Shown: piece after piece, positions 5,857 through 63,132 of the stretch
Position numbering within the stretch: position 1 is the first letter of the stretch
Layout of the letters: every line of letters starts with the position of its first letter
From: Candidatus Gastranaerophilales bacterium
GTDB taxonomy: Bacteria > Cyanobacteriota > Vampirovibrionia > Gastranaerophilales > Gastranaerophilaceae
NCBI GenBank assembly: GCA_944326565.1
Contig: CALVEL010000002.1
Span: 62,001 to 126,000 of the forward strand
DNA length: 64,000 nt
Reading direction: 5' to 3'
The notes under the pieces: model-generated
What the model saw: only the letters and a program-made list of their open reading frames with translations
What the model was told of the DNA's origin: nothing
Database searches by the model: none
Translations under genes and position numbers: made by a program

Positions 5857-5885
5857 ATTATAGCATAGAAAAAACTATTTATCAA
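5857..5885 (-). promoter_or_regulatory. Promoter placing the HEAT-like gene as leaderless
   Basis: On the minus strand TTGATA (5880-5885), 17-nt spacer, TATAAT (5857-5862). The last base of the -10 box is 7 nt from the ATG at 5849, so the predicted transcription start is at or one base before the A of ATG. Confidence 0.6.
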
Positions 5886-6121
5886 TTTTACAGTTATACA
5901 TAAGGCTTTATCACGCTGTATTTTATGTTTTGTTAAGTAGGGATTATTTATGGCAAAATCGAGGTATTGTGAATTGTTTGACGTCCCGAAAATAAATAAA
6001 TTTTTGTTCATGGTGATTTCTCAATGATTTTAAAATTATTCTGTTGCATAATTGTAAAAATGAACATATTAAGTAACGGGTATATATTTGGTACACCAAA
6101 ATAAGAATAAATGTAGGGAAA

Positions 6122-16171: not shown

Positions 16172-16177
16172 TATAAT
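16172..16177 (+). promoter_or_regulatory. -10 box placing the U32 peptidase gene as leaderless
   Basis: TATAAT followed by 6 nt and then the ATG at 16184. No Shine-Dalgarno is present. A weak TTAAAT lies 17 nt further upstream. Confidence 0.55.
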
Positions 16178-16183
16178 TACTTT

Positions 16184-17998
16184 ATGAAACTTAACAAAAA
16201 AGTAGAATTGTTGGCTCCGGCAAAAGATAAACAAACAGCAATAGCAGCGATAGATTGTGGCGCAGACGCGGTTTATATAGGTGCTCCGAAGTTCGGCGCA
16301 AGGCAAAATGCTTCAAATTCATTAGAAGATATAAAAGAAATTGTAGAGTATGCTCATAAGTTTAATGTTCGAGTGCATATAACATTAAATACGATTTTGA
16401 CTGATGAAGAGTTGCAAGAAGCAGAAAAACTGATTAATGAATTATATAAAATTAATGTAGATGCAATAATCGTTCAAGATATGGGGATTTTGGAACTTGC
16501 AATAGAAGGTAAATTACCTCCGATTGAAATTCATGCAAGTACTCAGTGTGATAACAGAACAATTGAAAAAGTTAAATTTTTTCAGAAAATAGGTGTAAAA
16601 CGGGTAATCTTAGCAAGAGAACTGTCAATATGCCAAATAGAAAAAATATGTCAAACCGTTAGAGAATCTGATTTCAATTCTGATATGGAAATAGAAACTT
16701 TTATCCATGGAGCATTGTGCGTATCATACAGTGGGCAATGCTATTTGAGTACTTCAATAGGCGGAAGATCAGCTAACAGAGGAGAATGTGCACAACCTTG
16801 CCGTAAAAAATATACTTTAATTGATGAAGACGGAAAGATATATGCGAAAAATAAGCATTTATTAAGTTTGAAAGATTTTAATGCGTCTACGCATATTCAA
16901 AAATTGATAAATGCTGGTGTAAAATCTTTTAAAATAGAAGGGCGTTTGAAAGATGTAAATTATGTCAAAAATGTAGTTGCATATTACCGTAAAGAAATTG
17001 ATAAATATTCTCAAAAAACTTCTTCAGGTAAAGTTTTTTTGGATTTTGAACCTAATCTGTCTAAGAGTTTTAACAGAGGATTTACTGATTATTTTTTACC
17101 TTGTGTGCTGGGAAATAAAAAAGATAGACCGAAAAATATTTATAACTTGGATACGCCAAAATCTTTAGGAGAAAAAATAGGCAAAGTTGAACAAGTAGGA
17201 AAGGATTTTTTTGTTATAAAAAATATAGAATTAAATTCACAAGATGGTCTTTGCTATTTTGATAAAGGAGAACTTTGCGGGTGTTTGGTAAATAAAATTG
17301 AGAATGCTAGAATTTATCCGAATAATATTGGAAATATTAAACAAGGTACAATAATCTACAGGAATTTCGACAGCAAATTTGAAAAACAGCTTATAAATTC
17401 AAAAACTCAACGTAAGCTTGGTGTAAAATTCAAATATGAAAAAAATATTTTAATTGCAACTGATGAAGATGGTATTTCAGTAGAATTAACATTGTCAAAA
17501 GGTGAAGAACCTAAAAATCCTGAAAAAATGAGAGAAACATTTATAAATCAACTTTCAAAATCAGGTAATAGTGATTTTTACGTAATTAATGTGGAGATTA
17601 TAACGTCACCATCGTTTATGGCTGTTTCATCGATAAATCAAGTAAGACGTGAGATTCTTGCTAAACTTATGCAAAAAAGAATAGAAAATTATGAATTTTC
17701 CATTCAAAATCCTTTGAATTTTTCAGAATTTCCTAATAAATTGTATGATTACCACGCAAATATATTCAATGATAAAGCGAAACTTTTTTATCAAAATTGC
17801 GGTTGCAAAGTATCTGAATATGCACTAGAAAAAACTAATAATTTCAAAAATAAAGAATTAATGCGGACAAAACACTGCCTAAAATCAGTATTTAATATTT
17901 GTGGCAAAAATAAAAAAATGTATCTTGTAGATGAAAAAGGTAAAAAATACAATTTAATCTTTGATTGTAAAAATTGTGAAATGATAATTTTAAATTAA
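16184..17998 (+). CDS. U32 family peptidase-like protein (RlhA/PrtC group)
   Basis: A 604-residue U32-family protein. Seen: the N-terminal VELLAPAKDKQTAIAAIDCGADAVYIG barrel start, NVRVHITLNT, and the Cys-rich signature around residues 180-205 (HGALCVSYSGQCYLS, ANRGECAQPCR). A final Cys occurs in RTKHCLKSVFNIC. These Cys likely bind an iron-sulfur cluster. Members such as RlhA hydroxylate 23S rRNA, and others are called collagenase-like. The length fits the long RlhA-type form with the extra C-terminal domain. Which reaction this copy performs is uncertain. The ATG has no SD but a TATAAT 6 nt upstream. Confidence 0.8.
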   Translation: MKLNKKVELLAPAKDKQTAIAAIDCGADAVYIGAPKFGARQNASNSLEDIKEIVEYAHKFNVRVHITLNTILTDEELQEAEKLINELYKINVDAIIVQDMGILELAIEGKLPPIEIHASTQCDNRTIEKVKFFQKIGVKRVILARELSICQIEKICQTVRESDFNSDMEIETFIHGALCVSYSGQCYLSTSIGGRSANRGECAQPCRKKYTLIDEDGKIYAKNKHLLSLKDFNASTHIQKLINAGVKSFKIEGRLKDVNYVKNVVAYYRKEIDKYSQKTSSGKVFLDFEPNLSKSFNRGFTDYFLPCVLGNKKDRPKNIYNLDTPKSLGEKIGKVEQVGKDFFVIKNIELNSQDGLCYFDKGELCGCLVNKIENARIYPNNIGNIKQGTIIYRNFDSKFEKQLINSKTQRKLGVKFKYEKNILIATDEDGISVELTLSKGEEPKNPEKMRETFINQLSKSGNSDFYVINVEIITSPSFMAVSSINQVRREILAKLMQKRIENYEFSIQNPLNFSEFPNKLYDYHANIFNDKAKLFYQNCGCKVSEYALEKTNNFKNKELMRTKHCLKSVFNICGKNKKMYLVDEKGKKYNLIFDCKNCEMIILN

Positions 17999-18496: not shown

Positions 18497-18505
18497 TGAT
18501 ATTAT
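18497..18505 (+). promoter_or_regulatory. Extended -10 placing nrnA as leaderless
   Basis: TGA-TATTAT (extended -10) followed by 6 nt and the ATG at 18512. There is no Shine-Dalgarno in the 30 nt upstream of the start. Confidence 0.5.
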
Positions 18506-21984: not shown

Positions 21985-22049
21985 AGGAGCTGAAAATGCA
22001 GACTATGATTGAAATTATGGGGGGGGGGGGCACCCGAAAATAAGCTCCT
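21985..22049 (+). promoter_or_regulatory. Poly-G leader of pseudopilin copy 1
   Basis: The Shine-Dalgarno AGGAGCT (21985-21991) is exactly complementary to AGCTCCT (22043-22049). Between them lie ATG 21996, TTG 22009 and a run of 12 G (22019-22030). With 12 G the ATG frame ends at a TAA soon after the tract, and the pilin frame opens only from the weak TTG. Loss of one G would put the ATG in frame. Confidence 0.75.
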
Positions 22050-22785
22050 AGCAGGTAGAAAAATAGGGTTTACATTAGCAGAAGTTCTGATAACAATCGG
22101 AATAATCGGAATAGTCGCATCAATGACTATACCAATGCTGATTTCAGGATATAAAAAGAGTGTAGTAGTAAGCAGTTTGCAGAAGAATTTGTCACTTTTT
22201 TCACAAGCGGTACAACTTGCAGAGGCAAAACATGGATTTACTGATGAATGGCCTTATTGTAATGAGGATAGTTCAATAGAATGTACAGAGGATTTTTTTA
22301 ATAATTATCTGTTACCTGAATTAAAAGTTATAAAAGTATGTACCCCCGAGGAATCAGAAATATGTTGGACCAGCCCTAAAGGTTTGTCTGGACAATCCGG
22401 TTATTTAACTGGCAAAGAGTCTAAACATGTCAGAGCCTTATTAAGTAATGGCTCATCAATTATAATGTGGCCCGGCGTAGAAAGCGAAAGGAAACACTGG
22501 CAGATATGGATAGATATAGACGGACCTATGAAAGGACCTGCATTAATAGGCGGGGATGTTTTTGGATTTAGGTTAAATTATAAAACTTCTATAGACGATG
22601 GTATTTTATACCGAAAGGGTGTTGGTTTAGTAGGGGCTGATTTTTCGGATGAAGATGTATTAAGGAATGATTCTCTGTATGGATGCAGTAAAACTGTGAA
22701 TACTGTCTATGCTGGTCGATATTGCGGGGCATTAATTCAACATTCGGGCTGGAAAGTTCCAAAAGATTATCCTGTGAAGTTTTAA
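22009..22785 (+). CDS. Prepilin-type pseudopilin, copy 1
   Basis: A 258-residue secreted pilin-like protein. After the conserved GGGAPENKLLAGRK leader comes a class III signal sequence G|FTLAEVLITIGIIGIVASM, with prepilin peptidase cleavage expected after Gly20. A C-terminal globular domain follows with several Cys pairs (EICWT, YGCSK, RYCGAL). Likely part of a type II secretion or type IV pilus-like machine. In this assembly the pilin frame can start only at TTG 22009. The ATG with the good SD (21996) is one base out of frame because of the G tract. It has its own promoter and terminator. Confidence 0.75.
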   Translation: MKLWGGGAPENKLLAGRKIGFTLAEVLITIGIIGIVASMTIPMLISGYKKSVVVSSLQKNLSLFSQAVQLAEAKHGFTDEWPYCNEDSSIECTEDFFNNYLLPELKVIKVCTPEESEICWTSPKGLSGQSGYLTGKESKHVRALLSNGSSIIMWPGVESERKHWQIWIDIDGPMKGPALIGGDVFGFRLNYKTSIDDGILYRKGVGLVGADFSDEDVLRNDSLYGCSKTVNTVYAGRYCGALIQHSGWKVPKDYPVKF

Positions 22786-32226: not shown

Positions 32227-32291
32227 AGGAGCTGGAAATGCAGACTATGATTGAAAATATGGGGGGGGGGGGCACCCGAAAATAAGCTCCT
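32227..32291 (+). promoter_or_regulatory. Poly-G leader of pseudopilin copy 3 (promoterless)
   Basis: AGGAGCT (32227-32233) pairs with AGCTCCT (32285-32291). ATG 32238, TTG 32251 and 12 G (32261-32272) lie between. The leader begins within 10 nt of the engB stop, so the usual TTGCCA/TATAAT upstream part is missing. Confidence 0.75.
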
Positions 32292-33039
32292 GGTTGGTAA
32301 AAAAATAGGATTTACACAAAAGCCAACAGATTTAAAAAAAGAGAAAGTATCAATTTACCCAAAGGCTTTATCAAAAGTCTTTTCTAAAAGTGCCTTTACA
32401 ATGGCAGAAGTTTTGATAACTTTAGGCATAATCGGGATAGTAGCCGCAATGACTATACCCGGTCTAATCAAGAATTATCAGGAAAGACAGTTCAAAACAG
32501 CATATAAAAAAGTATATTCAGAAATATCCCAAGCGTTTCAAGAAGCATTGCTGAATCAGGAGTTTGCACGTGCGCAAAAGAGGGATATACCTGCTACAGA
32601 AGAAGAATTTAATATATTAAAATCTAAATTCAAGGTAATGCTTGATTGTGGAAATCAACAGATAGATCGTTGCTGGAAAAAAGGTGATACATTATGTGGA
32701 GGTTCATGTTCATCAGGCAATTCCGCGGATGGTATTGATATGGATGACGGTGCACCTAGAGAAAATGATTCGTTATGTTTTATAGATGGTGGCGGTCAAA
32801 GTTGGTGTACATATACTGCTAGAGAAAACATATTTTTAGTAGACACAAATGGACGAGCAAATCCGAACAGATTTGGTCGTGACAGATGGATGTTTACATT
32901 TGCTGATATAAATAATAATAGAACGAATAGTTTTGTTAGTTATAAAAAAGTTATTCCTTATATAAATGAAGATGTACTAACCCAGGAATGGTACTGCAAA
33001 CGTCCGCCTTGTTATTATCAATCCTGGCTTTTGAAGTAA
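32251..33039 (+). CDS. Prepilin-type pseudopilin, copy 3, with insertion in the leader
   Basis: A 262-residue pilin-like protein. An extra 28-residue segment (32317-32400) lies between the leader GGGAPENKLLVGKKIGFT and MAEVLITLGIIGIVAAM. As a result the residue before FTMAEVL is Ala instead of Gly (KSA|FTMAEVL), while an unused G|FT stands upstream. The mature domain has paired Cys (LDCGN, DRCWKKGDTLCGGSCSSG, CKRPPCYYQSW) and closely matches copy 4. The start in the pilin frame is TTG 32251. It is probably read from the engB transcript. Confidence 0.75.
   Translation: MKIWGGGAPENKLLVGKKIGFTQKPTDLKKEKVSIYPKALSKVFSKSAFTMAEVLITLGIIGIVAAMTIPGLIKNYQERQFKTAYKKVYSEISQAFQEALLNQEFARAQKRDIPATEEEFNILKSKFKVMLDCGNQQIDRCWKKGDTLCGGSCSSGNSADGIDMDDGAPRENDSLCFIDGGGQSWCTYTARENIFLVDTNGRANPNRFGRDRWMFTFADINNNRTNSFVSYKKVIPYINEDVLTQEWYCKRPPCYYQSWLLK
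32317..32400 (+). repeat. 84-bp palindrome-containing insertion in pseudopilin copy 3
   Basis: Compared with copies 1 and 2, 84 nt are inserted in frame, flanked by TTTACA at both ends (32311-32316 and 32395-32400). Inside is a hairpin: AAAGGCTTT, loop ATCA, AAAGTCTTT (one G-T wobble). A sister insertion occurs in copy 4. Confidence 0.65.
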
Positions 33040-40659: not shown

Positions 40660-42138
40660 ATGGAAAAAGTAGCCATTAAAGCATCGTTTCAAGCAATATC
40701 TAAACTGAATTGTGCTGCTTATCTCTCACAATATAGTGACGTAACAGTTAAACTTCCTGATTGTCCTGAACTTATTCAATGCTTAGCAATAACAATAAAA
40801 GCTCGTTATCCTTGGGTTTCAACCACCATAATTTTACTCTTTGTAATTGTGAAGGTTGCTCAAGCAGTAACAGCAAAACGGATAAGATATAAAGAATTTG
40901 AAAATGTGAAATTCCCGAATATTTTTGTTACCGTTCTAATGGGTTCAGGTTTTGGTAAAGATAAAATAATTAACGATTTAGACACCTTAGTTTTTACAGA
41001 GTTTCGTAACTGGTGTTATAAAGAATTTAAAAAATTCAAAAATAGAAAAGCCAACGAAACTAACCAAGAAACAAAATCAAGTGAACAACAAGAACTCCGA
41101 GAAATGGTACTTGAAATAACTGATGGAACAAAAGAAGGACTTACTAGTGATGCAGAACTGTTTTCTCAGATAGGAATAGGCTCTTTATTTATTGAACACT
41201 CCGAATTTTGGAACTTTCTTGCTAATTCAACACTAGACCAAAAGCAATTATATTACCAATTCTACCATGCTTACGATAGCAAGATTATTTCAAAGTGTAC
41301 GCAGGGAAAACCACGAAAAAGAAATATTGAAGATGTTCCTGTCAATTTACTTTTGTCCTCTGACCCATCACTATTTGAGTGTAATTTGAAAGAAGCTTTT
41401 AATACAGATTTGAAAACAGGGTTTATAAGACGCCTGTTATTAGGTTATCAGGCAGTTAAAGAGCCCTACGCAATAGAAACTGATGCAAAAAAATCTCGCT
41501 TGGCTAAAGATAAATACGGTGTTAATTTAAAAATATTAGGAGAACATTTTTTTGAAATATTTAAAAAAATTGAACTAAATGCAATATATACATTGACAGA
41601 TGAAGCATACGATGAAGTTCTTTATCCATACATAATAAGCTTGCAAAAGCTTGAAAGCGAGGAAGAAAATCCTTTGCTTGCTATTGAAATACCATCAAGG
41701 GAATTAAAAGTCATAAGGCTTTCAGCTATCTATGCCTGCATTAACCATCCTTGCGAGTTTGTTATTTTGCCAAAAGATGTAAAGCAGGCAATCGATACCG
41801 TCGAGATGATAAGCATTGACTTATGCAAATTTTTAAAGATAGAGCAAAATCTTGAATCTAACTGTGAAAGTCTGCTTGAGTTTTTTATAGCACATCAGGG
41901 CAAAGAATTTACAACAACAGACTTGAAACAGAATTATTTCAGTACTTCAGGCTTATCAAAAAGGGAATTCAATAAGAGTTTTAAAGCTCTTATTGAATCA
42001 ATCAGCCTGATAGCAACTTCAAGAGGGTATATCCTAAATGAAACTCCCGCAGGTAATTCAGGTGCTAAATACGCTCTAATCCCAATAAAATCAGAGGCTT
42101 TGAGCGACGGCATTCAAGAACTTGAGGATTTAATCTAA
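40660..42138 (+). CDS. Helicase-like island replication protein (DUF3987-like)
   Basis: A 492-residue protein. A loop GSGFGKD at residues 95-101 resembles a Walker A motif with the final Ser/Thr replaced by Asp. The central region (SIGPLFIEHSEFWNFLANST-like, then FIRRLLLGYQ) and the C-terminal winged-helix-like part fit the DUF3987/primase-helicase group of plasmid and satellite proteins. Assignment is moderate. It is followed by iteron-like repeats and the primase gene, which supports a replication role. Confidence 0.6.
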   Translation: MEKVAIKASFQAISKLNCAAYLSQYSDVTVKLPDCPELIQCLAITIKARYPWVSTTIILLFVIVKVAQAVTAKRIRYKEFENVKFPNIFVTVLMGSGFGKDKIINDLDTLVFTEFRNWCYKEFKKFKNRKANETNQETKSSEQQELREMVLEITDGTKEGLTSDAELFSQIGIGSLFIEHSEFWNFLANSTLDQKQLYYQFYHAYDSKIISKCTQGKPRKRNIEDVPVNLLLSSDPSLFECNLKEAFNTDLKTGFIRRLLLGYQAVKEPYAIETDAKKSRLAKDKYGVNLKILGEHFFEIFKKIELNAIYTLTDEAYDEVLYPYIISLQKLESEEENPLLAIEIPSRELKVIRLSAIYACINHPCEFVILPKDVKQAIDTVEMISIDLCKFLKIEQNLESNCESLLEFFIAHQGKEFTTTDLKQNYFSTSGLSKREFNKSFKALIESISLIATSRGYILNETPAGNSGAKYALIPIKSEALSDGIQELEDLI

Positions 42139-45709: not shown

Positions 45710-48661
45710 ATGACAAGTAATTTAGAAAAGTTATATAACGATTTAAACCTTGTTGGTAAGAAAGAGTTTATTCGATTAGATAAAATAGAACAATATCCTC
45801 TTAACAATATTTCTTTGCGTTATAAAAATGCTATTGATGAAATGAAACCTGAATCCATTTTTTGTATGGAAAATGAACCTTTGATCTTATTTTTCAATTT
45901 AGAAAATGAACATAATAGTCAAGATAAAATAAAAAATATTCAAAAACAAACTTGGAATTTCGATAAAGCACCCATTATTGTTGTATCAACGGCAAATGAA
46001 ATTGTTTTTTACAATGCTTTTGATTTTGATACTAACAATCATAAGTTATCTATTTTAACAAAATCAGTAAAAGATTTTCAAAATTTTTCATATGAAAATC
46101 TTTATACGGGCAAAATTTTTTCTAAATATAGAAATAAGTTTACAGATAAAAATAGAGTTAACACTTTATTATTTCAACACATAATTAGTTATAGACAAGC
46201 CTTAATAAAAAAAGGAATGCATCCATCTTTTGCTACAAAATTGCTATCCAGAATTATTTTCCTTAAATATTTAAAAGATAGAAAGATATCTGTAAATAAG
46301 GATAATTCTAATATGATAGAGAATTCTTTTGAAAATAAAGATTCATTATATGAATTATTTCGTTACTTAAAAAAAGAGTTTAATGGTGATTTATTTGATA
46401 TAGAAAAAAATGAAAACACTTTATTATCAGATGAATATATGGATATTATTAAAGGTTTCTTTTATGATAGCGATATTAATGGACAATTAAGATTATTTAT
46501 TCCATTTGATTTTTCTATAATTCCAATAGAACTGGTAAGTAGTATTTATGAGAATTTTTTGAATTATAAACAATATGAGAATAAAGCATATTATACACCG
46601 ACATTTTTGGTTGATTATATAATTAATACAACAGTATCTCCTTTTTTAAATGATAAAAATAAAAATAACAGTAACTGTAAAATTTTGGACCCTGCTTGTG
46701 GTTCAGGGATATTCCTAATTGAATCTTTAAGAAAAATTATCTATAAAGAAGAAAATATAACTCAAAATAAGATTAGTCCTGAAAGGTTAAAAGAGTTAGT
46801 TGAAAACAATATTTTTGGAATAGACAAAGATGAAGATGCAATAAATATAGCAATATTTTCTTTATACATAACTTTATTAGATTACCAAGATCCACGCAGT
46901 ATTTTAAATTTTAAGTTTCCGCATTTAAAAGATAATAATTTTTTTGTAAATGATTTTTTTGATGAATCAAATTGTTTTAATAATAAAATAAAGAATCTTG
47001 ATTTCATTTTATCAAATCCGCCTTATGGTGATATAAAAGAAGGCTTACATAACAACTGGTACAAAAAAAATAATATTCCAGTAAATGATAACCAAATTGC
47101 AGAAAGTTTTATGGCAAGGGTAAAAGATTTTTGTAATAAACAAACAGTTGTTTCAATGGTTATTACTAGTAAAATTTTTTATAATATGAAGGCTTGTAAT
47201 TATAGAAAATATTTTTTAAGTAATTTTACAATAAAACAAATACTTGAGTTATCTCCTGTAAGAAAGCAAATATTTAATGCAGCTATTCCTCCAGTATCTA
47301 TTCTTACATATTCGTATTGTCCAGGGAATAAGAAAACAGATAATAATATTATATATACAAGTATAAAGCCTAATTTATACTTTAAATATTTTAAAATTTT
47401 ATTAATTGAAAAAAATGATATTAAGTATATTCGACAAAGTTTATTTTGTAAATATGATTGGCTTTGGAAAGTAATTTTGTATGGGAGCATTTTAGACTTT
47501 TATTTTATAAAAAGACTTATTGAAGAGTATGAGTTTTTAAATAAACAAAAAAATCAGCTTATTTGTGGTGAAGGAATTCAATTAAGTGGCAGTAGTAAAA
47601 TGTCTGCTGAATTATTAAATGGGAAGCTTTATTTAGATACAAAGAAGAAACAATTAAAACCATTTTGTATTGAGTATAATGAATTAAAACCTTTCAATGC
47701 TGATAATTTGCATAGAAATAAAGCAAATAAAATGGAATTATTTAAGGCTCCTATGGTTTTGATAAAAAAAGGAAACTCTCCTGACTTATCTTGTGTTTCT
47801 GCTGTTGCAATTAAAGATATGGTTTATACAGATTCGGTATCTTCTATTAAATTCAAGGATTATGATGAAGATAAGGTATTTAATTTATGTGGTTTGTTTA
47901 ATTCTTCGTTTTTTACCTATTATATTATGAATACTTCATCATCAGTAGCAGTAGAAAGAAACCAAATTCATATTTCTGAGTATTTAAAAGTTCCTTATCA
48001 ATTTGATAAAGAATTGGCTAATTATGTAAAAGAAATGCATGAATTATGTTCCTCTTGTAGAGCAAATACTATTTTTGATAGTTTAGAAGATAATCAAAAT
48101 AAGAAATTATTAAAAGAAAGTTTGATGGTAGCTATAAATCATCAAATAAAAAAGATATATAATATTTCAAAAACAGAAGAGGATTTAATAGATTATGCTA
48201 TAAATATTTCAATTCCTATTTGGCGATTTGGGGATAGTACTTCTCAAATTCAAGAACCAATACCTTTTAAAAGGGTCTCAAAAAAACAATTAAAAGAATA
48301 TGCAAATATATTTATTGAAGAATTTGCAGAGCAATATGAAAATTTTAGTGTTGATATATATCCTTTCCAATACTGTACCTTAATCAATTTTAAAGCTAGA
48401 GCAGAACAAATGGAAAAACCGCCAATAACATTTTATGAAAATAAAGAAATTGAAAATATTATAAAAATTGTTTCAGATGTTTCAATAAATGATATTACAA
48501 ACGAAATTTATATAAAGAAAGAAATAAAAGGTTTTAATGAAAATTCATTTTTTGTTATAAAAACAAATGAATATAAGAATTGGCATAAAGCCATTGCCAG
48601 ATTAGATGTTAACGAATTTTCAAATGCTATATGGGAGGCTGAACTTGAACTCCCTGAATAA
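45710..48661 (+). CDS. N6-adenine DNA methyltransferase of restriction-modification type
   Basis: A 983-residue protein. Seen: SAM motif I LDPACGSGIF (about residue 326) and the catalytic NPPY (about residue 436, DFILSNPPYGD), in the gamma order used by type I and IIG adenine methylases. The C-terminal half contains the specificity-type region (GEGIQLSGSSKMSAE, IHISEYLKVPYQ). The N-terminal 200 residues could be nuclease-like or a recognition domain. A second, downstream nuclease-like gene overlaps its end. Likely methylates island and host DNA. Confidence 0.85.
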   Translation: MTSNLEKLYNDLNLVGKKEFIRLDKIEQYPLNNISLRYKNAIDEMKPESIFCMENEPLILFFNLENEHNSQDKIKNIQKQTWNFDKAPIIVVSTANEIVFYNAFDFDTNNHKLSILTKSVKDFQNFSYENLYTGKIFSKYRNKFTDKNRVNTLLFQHIISYRQALIKKGMHPSFATKLLSRIIFLKYLKDRKISVNKDNSNMIENSFENKDSLYELFRYLKKEFNGDLFDIEKNENTLLSDEYMDIIKGFFYDSDINGQLRLFIPFDFSIIPIELVSSIYENFLNYKQYENKAYYTPTFLVDYIINTTVSPFLNDKNKNNSNCKILDPACGSGIFLIESLRKIIYKEENITQNKISPERLKELVENNIFGIDKDEDAINIAIFSLYITLLDYQDPRSILNFKFPHLKDNNFFVNDFFDESNCFNNKIKNLDFILSNPPYGDIKEGLHNNWYKKNNIPVNDNQIAESFMARVKDFCNKQTVVSMVITSKIFYNMKACNYRKYFLSNFTIKQILELSPVRKQIFNAAIPPVSILTYSYCPGNKKTDNNIIYTSIKPNLYFKYFKILLIEKNDIKYIRQSLFCKYDWLWKVILYGSILDFYFIKRLIEEYEFLNKQKNQLICGEGIQLSGSSKMSAELLNGKLYLDTKKKQLKPFCIEYNELKPFNADNLHRNKANKMELFKAPMVLIKKGNSPDLSCVSAVAIKDMVYTDSVSSIKFKDYDEDKVFNLCGLFNSSFFTYYIMNTSSSVAVERNQIHISEYLKVPYQFDKELANYVKEMHELCSSCRANTIFDSLEDNQNKKLLKESLMVAINHQIKKIYNISKTEEDLIDYAINISIPIWRFGDSTSQIQEPIPFKRVSKKQLKEYANIFIEEFAEQYENFSVDIYPFQYCTLINFKARAEQMEKPPITFYENKEIENIIKIVSDVSINDITNEIYIKKEIKGFNENSFFVIKTNEYKNWHKAIARLDVNEFSNAIWEAELELPE

Positions 48662-51199: not shown

Positions 51200-51205
51200 A
51201 TTTTA
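51200..51205 (-). promoter_or_regulatory. -10 box placing the PpiC gene as leaderless
   Basis: TAAAAT on the minus strand, 6 nt before the ATG at 51193. A TTGTGA lies 16 nt further upstream. Confidence 0.45.
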
Positions 51206-52904: not shown

Positions 52905-52933
52905 ATTTTATCGAAAAATATTACTAAAGTAAA
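52905..52933 (-). promoter_or_regulatory. Promoter placing the carbonic anhydrase gene as leaderless
   Basis: On the minus strand TTTACT, 17-nt spacer, TAAAAT (52905-52910), then 6 nt and the ATG at 52898. Confidence 0.55.
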
Positions 52934-53351: not shown

Positions 53352-53357
53352 ATTATA
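53352..53357 (-). promoter_or_regulatory. -10 box placing the YkgJ gene as leaderless
   Basis: TATAAT on the minus strand followed by 6 nt and the ATG at 53345. The -35 is not clear. Confidence 0.5.
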
Positions 53358-59197: not shown

Positions 59198-59225
59198 ATT
59201 ATATGTTAATATCAATATATTGCAA
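59198..59225 (-). promoter_or_regulatory. Promoter placing the DUF4127-like gene as leaderless
   Basis: On the minus strand TTGCAA (59220-59225), 16-nt spacer, TATAAT (59198-59203), 6 nt, then ATG 59191. Confidence 0.6.
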
Positions 59226-61905: not shown

Positions 61906-61969
61906 AGGAGCTGGAAATGCAGACTATGATTGAAATTAGGGGGGGGGGGGCACCCGAAAATAAGCTCCT
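61906..61969 (+). promoter_or_regulatory. Poly-G leader of pseudopilin copy 4 (ATG in frame)
   Basis: AGGAGCT (61906-61912) pairs with AGCTCCT (61963-61969). ATG 61917 and 12 G (61939-61950) lie between. One base before the tract differs from the other copies (ATTA in place of ATTAT), so here 12 G put the ATG in the pilin frame. Confidence 0.75.
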
Positions 61970-62717
61970 AGTTGGTAAAAAAACAGGATTTACACAAAAG
62001 CCAACAGATTTTAAAAGAGGTATTATATCAATTTACCCAAAGGCTTTATCAAAAGCCTTTTACAAAAGTGCCTTTACAATGGCAGAAGTATTAATAACAA
62101 TAGGGATAATCGGGATAGTAGCCGCAATGACTATACCCGGTCTAATCAAGAATTATCAGGAAAGACAATTTAAGACAGCATATAAAAAAGTATATTCAGA
62201 AATATCCCAAGCGTTTCAAGAAGCATTACTAAATCAAGAGTTTACAAGAACAACACAATTTTCTGCTACAGCTACAACAGAGGAATTTAATATATTAAAA
62301 TCCAAATTCAAAGTAATGCTTGATTGTGGCTCTGAGGATATAGACCGCTGCTGGAAAAAAGGCGATACCTTGTGTGGTGGTTCATGTCAATCAGGCAATT
62401 CCGCAGATGGTATTGATATGGAAAATGGTGCTCCTATGCAAGGTGAAGCTTCGTGTTTTATAGATGGTGGTGGACAAAACTGGTGTATATATGGTGCTAG
62501 AGAAAACATATTTTTAGTAGATACAAATGGTTTTTCAAATCCGAATCAATTTGGTAGAGATAGGTGGATATTTACATTTGCTGATATAAATAATGAACGG
62601 ACAGTTTATTCTGCTAAGTATAAAAAAGTTATTCCTTACATAAATGAAGATATATTGACACAAACTTCTTTTTGCAAACATCCGCCTTGTTATTATGAAT
62701 CCTGGCTTTTGAAGTAA
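61917..62717 (+). CDS. Prepilin-type pseudopilin, copy 4, ATG in frame
   Basis: A 266-residue pilin-like protein, close paralogue of copy 3. Order: MQTMIEIRGGGAPENKLLVGKK, the 84-bp insertion segment with a perfect hairpin, then FTMAEVLITIGIIGIVAAM with Ala before Phe, and a mature domain with the same Cys pattern (LDCGSED, DRCWKKGDTLCGGSCQSG, CKHPPCYYESW). This is the only copy in which the SD-proximal ATG is in frame with the pilin, so it should be expressed best. Confidence 0.8.
   Translation: MQTMIEIRGGGAPENKLLVGKKTGFTQKPTDFKRGIISIYPKALSKAFYKSAFTMAEVLITIGIIGIVAAMTIPGLIKNYQERQFKTAYKKVYSEISQAFQEALLNQEFTRTTQFSATATTEEFNILKSKFKVMLDCGSEDIDRCWKKGDTLCGGSCQSGNSADGIDMENGAPMQGEASCFIDGGGQNWCIYGARENIFLVDTNGFSNPNQFGRDRWIFTFADINNERTVYSAKYKKVIPYINEDILTQTSFCKHPPCYYESWLLK
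61995..62078 (+). repeat. 84-bp palindrome-containing insertion in pseudopilin copy 4
   Basis: In-frame 84 nt between TTTACA (61989-61994) and TTTACA (62073-62078). Contains a perfect 9-bp hairpin AAAGGCTTT-ATCA-AAAGCCTTT (62039-62060). Confidence 0.7.
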
Positions 62718-62729
62718 GTTTGTACTATT

Positions 62730-63116
62730 TTAAAAAACATTTTCGAAAAGTTTTTTATAATTTTCTTTTAACTGACACATGGGTTTTGGCAAGTATTCGA
62801 CATCATATTTTTCTGCTATCACCTTAATATTTGGTGCTGCAGAAATTATAACTATTCTGGTATTTTGGTATTCTTTGTATGTGTTGATTTGTTTTATAAA
62901 CCACTCGCCGGCATACATAGGTAAAAAATCACTTTCCATCTGCATATCAGTAAATATTACATCATAAGGGGTATCAATATTAAGAATTATTTTATCAAGC
63001 CCTTCTTTTGCGGATTTGGCAATATCAAATAATGTATTTTCAGGCAGAGCTTGCTTTAAATTATTCAAATGATATTCAATCCAGCCTATAGAATCATCAG
63101 TTATAAGTATTTTCAT
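62730..63116 (-). CDS. Receiver-only response regulator
   Basis: A 128-residue single receiver domain, without an output domain. Seen: ILITDDSIGWIEYH (acidic pair), VIFTDMQME (phospho-acceptor Asp), VIISAAP (Thr/Ser switch position), and YLPKP (conserved Lys). Like CheY-type regulators it probably passes the signal by binding a partner protein. The usual conserved Thr is replaced by Ser. The ATG has no SD; a TGT-TAGAAT extended -10 stands 7 nt upstream. Confidence 0.83.
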   Translation of the reverse strand: MKILITDDSIGWIEYHLNNLKQALPENTLFDIAKSAKEGLDKIILNIDTPYDVIFTDMQMESDFLPMYAGEWFIKQINTYKEYQNTRIVIISAAPNIKVIAEKYDVEYLPKPMCQLKENYKKLFENVF

Positions 63117-63123
63117 AGACTTA

Positions 63124-63132
63124 ATTCTAACA
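63124..63132 (-). promoter_or_regulatory. Extended -10 placing the receiver gene as leaderless
   Basis: TGT-TAGAAT on the minus strand, then 7 nt and the ATG at 63116. Confidence 0.45.

Follow-up and report, generated by a model that had tools for sequence, protein, structure and literature searches.

The window, the whole 64,000-nt stretch of DNA analysed here, comes from the genome of an uncultured gut bacterium of the Candidatus Gastranaerophilales, which are non-photosynthetic relatives of Cyanobacteria, and has a GC content of 31.6% (about 32% for the genome, whose assembly comprises 1.87 Mb in 14 contigs). It contains eight genes with a TATAAT-like box just upstream of the start codon (Table 1). 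Genes are named here, as in the original prediction, by the position of the A of their ATG, and k is the spacing in nt between the end of the box and the ATG. All eight ATGs are present, 16184 and 18512 on the forward strand and the other six on the reverse strand. The original prediction had placed a TATAAT-like box 6 or 7 nt before each of them, without a Shine–Dalgarno (SD) sequence. This is borne out for all eight: a TANNNT box is found at k = 6 in six genes and at k = 7 in two (5849 and 63116), and no SD is visible upstream of any of them. The products of the eight genes are unrelated to one another. Relatives of the U32 peptidase (16184) in named records come mostly from Candidatus Gastranaerophilales metagenome-assembled genomes, the closest being 70–76% identical, and on this ground the window is assigned to the order.

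Table 1. Upstream boxes and the genes that they precede in the window
Feature	Coordinates	Strand	Remarks
-10 box TATAAT	5857..5862	-	k = 7 to ATG 5849; TTGATA-17-TATAAT, TG precedes box
Leaderless-type gene, 390 aa	4677..5849	-	Weak HEAT_2 match below Pfam cut-off; start reassigned from 6011 to 5849
-10 box TATAAT	16172..16177	+	k = 6 to ATG 16184
Peptidase U32 family protein, 604 aa	16184..17998	+	
-10 box TATTAT	18500..18505	+	k = 6 to ATG 18512
DHH/DHHA1 phosphoesterase family protein, 321 aa	18512..19477	+	
-10 box TAAAAT	51200..51205	-	k = 6 to ATG 51193
PpiC-type peptidyl-prolyl isomerase, 116 aa	50843..51193	-	
-10 box TAAAAT	52905..52910	-	k = 6 to ATG 52898
Beta-carbonic anhydrase family protein, 201 aa	52293..52898	-	
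-10 box TATAAT	53352..53357	-	k = 6 to ATG 53345
CxxCxxCC (putative zinc/iron-chelating) protein, 133 aa	52944..53345	-	
-10 box TATAAT	59198..59203	-	k = 6 to ATG 59191
DUF4127 protein, 446 aa	57851..59191	-	
-10 box TAGAAT	63124..63129	-	k = 7 to ATG 63116
128-aa protein	62730..63116	-	Response-regulator receiver match below Pfam cut-off

Several other features of the window were recorded. Three genes (22009–22785, 32251–33039, and 61917–62717) share a near-identical beginning (AAGGAGCTG, with ATGCAG soon after). Two of them have a weak match to an N-terminal methylation (pilin-like) motif and the third has none. For 22009 and 32251, the true start probably lies at the ATG within ATGCAG and not at the called TTG. 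An Eco57I/MmeI-like restriction-modification methylase of 983 aa is encoded at 45710–48661, and the 492-aa open reading frame upstream of it (40660–42138) has no Pfam match. The 3′ end of the 16S rRNA was sought for its anti-SD sequence, and no match to small-subunit rRNA was found in the assembly, which is rated 99.92% complete; the missing rRNA is probably an assembly gap.

To count the boxes beyond the window, genes were called in 864 kb of the genome (the window and 800 kb more) with hexamer coding potential and the start codon as the sole criteria, leaving out ribosome-binding-site (RBS) and promoter information. This yielded 826 genes, 758 of which start with ATG; a loose SD definition divides the latter into 502 with an SD and 256 without. 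At these starts, taken from our own gene caller, a strict box (TA.[AG]AT) precedes 59 of the 256 SD-less genes, 46 at k = 6 and 13 at k = 7. The mean over k = 10–39 is 3.2 per spacing, with a maximum of 12 (k = 11), and the binomial p for the count at k = 6 is about 3e-38. The view that so precise a spacing is unlikely by chance thus holds in the 758-gene count. Only 3 of the 502 SD genes carry the strict box at k = 6 or 7 (Fisher p 1.6e-26 against the SD-less genes), and no peak is seen at internal in-frame ATGs, where it occurs at k = 6 in 21 of 5381. SD-less genes with other start codons yielded no strict box either (0/9 GTG and 0/25 TTG), while the looser TANNNT precedes 2 of the 25 TTG starts.

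The strict class amounts to about 7% of the ATG genes (59/758, with about 6 expected by chance), or roughly one gene in fourteen. It captures six of the eight window genes; 18512, with its TATTAT box, does not fit the strict pattern, and 5849 was missed since the caller took the upstream ATG at 6011. Among genes whose called start has neither signal, 12 have an alternative start with a box at a spacing of 6 or 7. Four decoy spacings gave 2, 3, 7, and 7 such genes, and a search for alternative starts therefore adds few. The count at k = 11 (12/256 SD-less genes), five bases off the main peak, exceeds the background as a minor excess of its own and recurs with TANNNT in the orthologues (66); it perhaps reflects overlapping AT-rich words.

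The sequence around the boxes has further promoter-like features. Hexamers that match TTGACA at 5 or more of the 6 positions lie 16–18 nt above the box in 12 of the 59 strict-class genes, whereas five shifted placements gave 0, 1, 1, 1, and 2. With the threshold lowered to 4 or more matches, the count is 25 of 59 versus 8–13. This -35 enrichment holds for the class, most single sites having no clear -35. T and G are also raised at the TG positions of the extended -10 in the 59 genes. The boxed genes differ from the SD genes in their context as well: the upstream neighbour is divergent for 34 of 59, compared with 166 of 502 SD genes, and a gene on the same strand lies within 30 nt of only 4 of 59, compared with 150 of 502. 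As a class, the boxed genes usually head transcription units, whereas SD genes often lie close behind another gene. Where SD genes do head units, boxes are scattered from about 12 nt upward and the peak at 6–7 nt is absent. Both patterns are as expected if one class had its +1 on the A of the ATG and the other had it further upstream.

The original prediction also held that the box corrects several start sites, which proved true for one of the three genes in question. For 5849, the coding-only caller had placed the start at 6011. That start needs a protein of 444 aa, and the longest open frame among 57 other matches is at most 439 aa. Since the caller chose 6011 and none of the 57 matches is long enough for it, 5849 is a real correction, and a strong one. 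For 53345 and 59191, only a mechanical longest-ORF list, which gave TTG starts, was corrected; the coding-potential caller was already at the ATG.

Orthologues were compared for seven of the eight genes, 63116 being left out. The loci are the best-scoring ones listed, and most come from the same family. The window's own copy is part of six of the seven sets; the counts are therefore not independent and are biased to near relatives. One of 80 loci (16184 set) and 2 of 30 (53345 set) were dropped for want of a usable ATG. Among the best-scoring loci of all seven sets, a box at k = 6 or 7 is present at 190 of 257 starts. Sorted by signal, 183 have the box without a strong SD, 18 an SD only, 7 both, and 49 neither.

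The sets vary considerably. With the own copy included, the box is found at 6 nt (6–7 nt class) in 30 of 30 best-scoring orthologues of 18512 (as TANNNT) and at 6–7 nt in 30 of 30 of 59191, but in only 7 of 30 of 5849. The best-scoring orthologues of 16184 have TANNNT at 6–7 nt in 63 of 79, and those of 53345 at 6 nt (6–7 nt class) in 20 of 28, four of this set counting as both box and SD under a looser SD definition. For 51193, 22 of 30 best-scoring orthologues have the box, 15 with the box only and 7 with an SD-like word too (e.g. TAGGAT). The 30 best-scoring orthologues of 52898 comprise 18 with a box at 6–7 nt and no SD, 8 that are SD-led, and 4 with neither; the SD-led ones have a clear SD, as in L269 and L270, with TATAAT further upstream. 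Upstream signals make this beta-carbonic anhydrase gene leaderless-type in one part of the relatives and SD-led in another. A set of genes held leaderless family-wide (18512 and 59191) while others switch (52898) could conceivably form a translational regulon, although we consider this unlikely. Speculatively, and with similarly low odds, its genes would be favoured jointly when ribosomes prefer 5′-AUG messages, for example under stress or with antibiotics that block leadered initiation.

Signal, spacing, context, and conservation across relatives make the boxes look like sigma-70 promoters with +1 on the A of the ATG. The usual +1 is the seventh base after a -10 box. We propose, with a probability of about 0.9, that the boxed genes are leaderless "TA-led" genes with a sigma-70-type promoter placed such that +1 would be the A of the ATG. 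In the predicted promoter, the -10 box (TATAAT/TANNNT) ends at k = 6 or, in fewer cases, at k = 7. An extended TG often accompanies it, and a -35-like hexamer is sometimes present 16–18 nt further up. The mRNA would begin with 5′-AUG, which would leave no room for an SD, and ribosomes would bind the 5′ AUG directly for translation. Position, sequence, near-exclusion with SD, unit-first context, and conservation all fit transcription from the A of the ATG, and this start appears supported. It is from the DNA that we infer both the 5′ end of the transcript at the ATG and leaderless translation.

Other readings of the boxes were weighed against this one. In a genome of 32% GC with short intergenic gaps, ordinary promoters might lie near an ATG by chance, with most transcripts starting elsewhere. 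The AT-richness speaks for this, as does the moderate enrichment of the bare pattern, for which a genome-wide count had been proposed with the original prediction. TATAAT-N6-ATG, counted irrespective of genes, occurs 52 times in the 864-kb sample, 1.6 times the 32.3 (sd 6.7) expected from 20 Markov-1 simulations (k = 9 control, 32 vs 33.6), a positive but weak outcome. A strong signal emerges at gene starts alone, and the bare pattern by itself is weak evidence. However, the peak appears only at 6 and 7 nt and not at other spacings, at internal ATGs, or in SD genes, and the box is retained in orthologues with diverged flanks, leaving this reading very improbable. Chance in an AT-rich genome is rejected on the spacing, internal-ATG, and SD-gene controls.

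The AT-rich element could instead be a translation signal, such as a non-SD ribosome or S1 site, within a leadered mRNA and without a promoter. AT-rich or S1-type non-SD initiation is known from Bacteroidetes and Cyanobacteria (PMC5397173, PMC9581028), and PMC5397173 is cautious as to whether an AT-rich bias near -10 to -20 represents leaderless mRNAs or S1 sites. Here, however, the element has sigma-70 grammar (TANAAT, TG extension, and -35 at 16–18 nt), a same-strand gene is seldom found close upstream of it, and an S1 site would presumably not need an exact 6-nt spacing. A translation signal in place of a promoter is rejected on this promoter grammar and gene context, and we give it only a minimal chance. 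Leaders of 1–5 nt, which would make the genes leaderless only in a loose sense, are somewhat less improbable but still quite unlikely. Both 6 and 7 nt occur, and for 5849 and 63116 a +1 one nt before the A is possible; yet 6 nt outnumbers 7 nt by 46 to 13, and therefore the usual +1 should fall on the A of the ATG. Leaders of 1–3 nt and no leader look alike in sequence and cannot be separated by it.

Counts of TATAAT 6 nt versus 9 nt before ATG in sampled genomes are 4689/2095 in the window's family (f1), with 6 nt higher in 38 of 38 genomes. Families f6 (225/121; 4/4 genomes higher at 6 nt) and f7 (178/103; 3/3) also have an excess, and f3 is intermediate (609/462; 8/10). A clear 6-nt excess is absent from f2 (168/155; two genomes), f4 (152/149; two), and f5 (61/57; one). 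Going by these counts, the close-box trait is strong in the family of the window, and two or three further families of the order share it. Gene-level profiles at SD-less starts gave 13 at 6 nt and 4 at 7 nt of 75 (mean 0.77) in an f1 genome (G018, 200 kb) and 7 and 6 of 130 (mean 1.5) in an f7 genome (G013, 400 kb). In two f6 genomes, the counts are 3 and 1 of 36 (mean 0.43; G006) and 2 and 0 of 10 (mean 0.10; G012).

Outside the order but in the same class, f8 has counts of 162/121, with 6 nt higher in 3 of 3 genomes. The 64 phylum genomes outside both the order and f8 have 1739/1552, a ratio of 1.12, with 35 of 64 higher at 6 nt; the 36 of these lumped as "other" have no excess (452/455). 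Two genomes from another class of the phylum (G093 and G128; 200 kb each) have the box at 6 nt in 1 of 109 and 1 of 105 SD-less starts, with no peak and few SD. The trait does not extend to the phylum at large, most of its other sampled genomes being without the excess. Among the 64, an excess was noted in f11 (168/78; four genomes), f15 (24/6; one), and f19 (36/10; two). These three families were singled out post hoc from the counts, and they may likewise have leaderless genes.

Most of what is known about Gastranaerophilales, which live in the gut, comes from assembled genomes. A leaderless share would correct start sites and predict promoters from sequence alone, and it would bear on the response to antibiotics acting on leadered initiation. 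Sets of orthologues in which species differ, some with a leaderless-type start and some with an SD, provide a natural series for studying how genes switch initiation mode. The mechanism is already known; in the open-licence literature, we found no report of leaderless genes in Gastranaerophilales or Melainabacteria, and as far as that literature goes the proposed class appears new for this lineage.

Zheng et al. 2011 described such genes as TA-led and leaderless (PMC3160421). Like those of the window, they have a TA-like signal about 10 bp before the start and no SD, and low-GC genomes in that study have a TAtAAT + TG peak, as in this genome. The highest leaderless shares given there are about 20% (Actinobacteria) and 40% (Deinococcus–Thermus), against about 7% here, and its group list for leaderless genes omits Cyanobacteria and their non-photosynthetic relatives. 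GeneMarkS-2 modelling, as cited in PMC9581028, predicted leaderless transcription in 21.6% of bacterial species. Genomes in its leaderless group contain SD genes beside leaderless ones, as this one appears to do; Cyanobacteria are named there to exemplify weak, unknown signals rather than leaderless transcription. In the photosynthetic sister group, Synechococcus elongatus UTEX 2973 has leaderless mRNAs, although only 19 gTSSs were classed as leaderless (PMC6091082). Our observations have a further parallel in Deinococcus–Thermus (Zhong et al. 2025; PMC12340547), where a -10 motif lies about 6–7 bp before the ORF, RBS genes form a separate class, and the motif was used to correct starts, as here. 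In D. radiodurans, TANNNT is found in nearly a third of genes, with expression tests (PMC12340547). The class described here, known from sequence alone, differs in its fuller TATAAT, its class-enriched -35, and its share of about 7% of genes.
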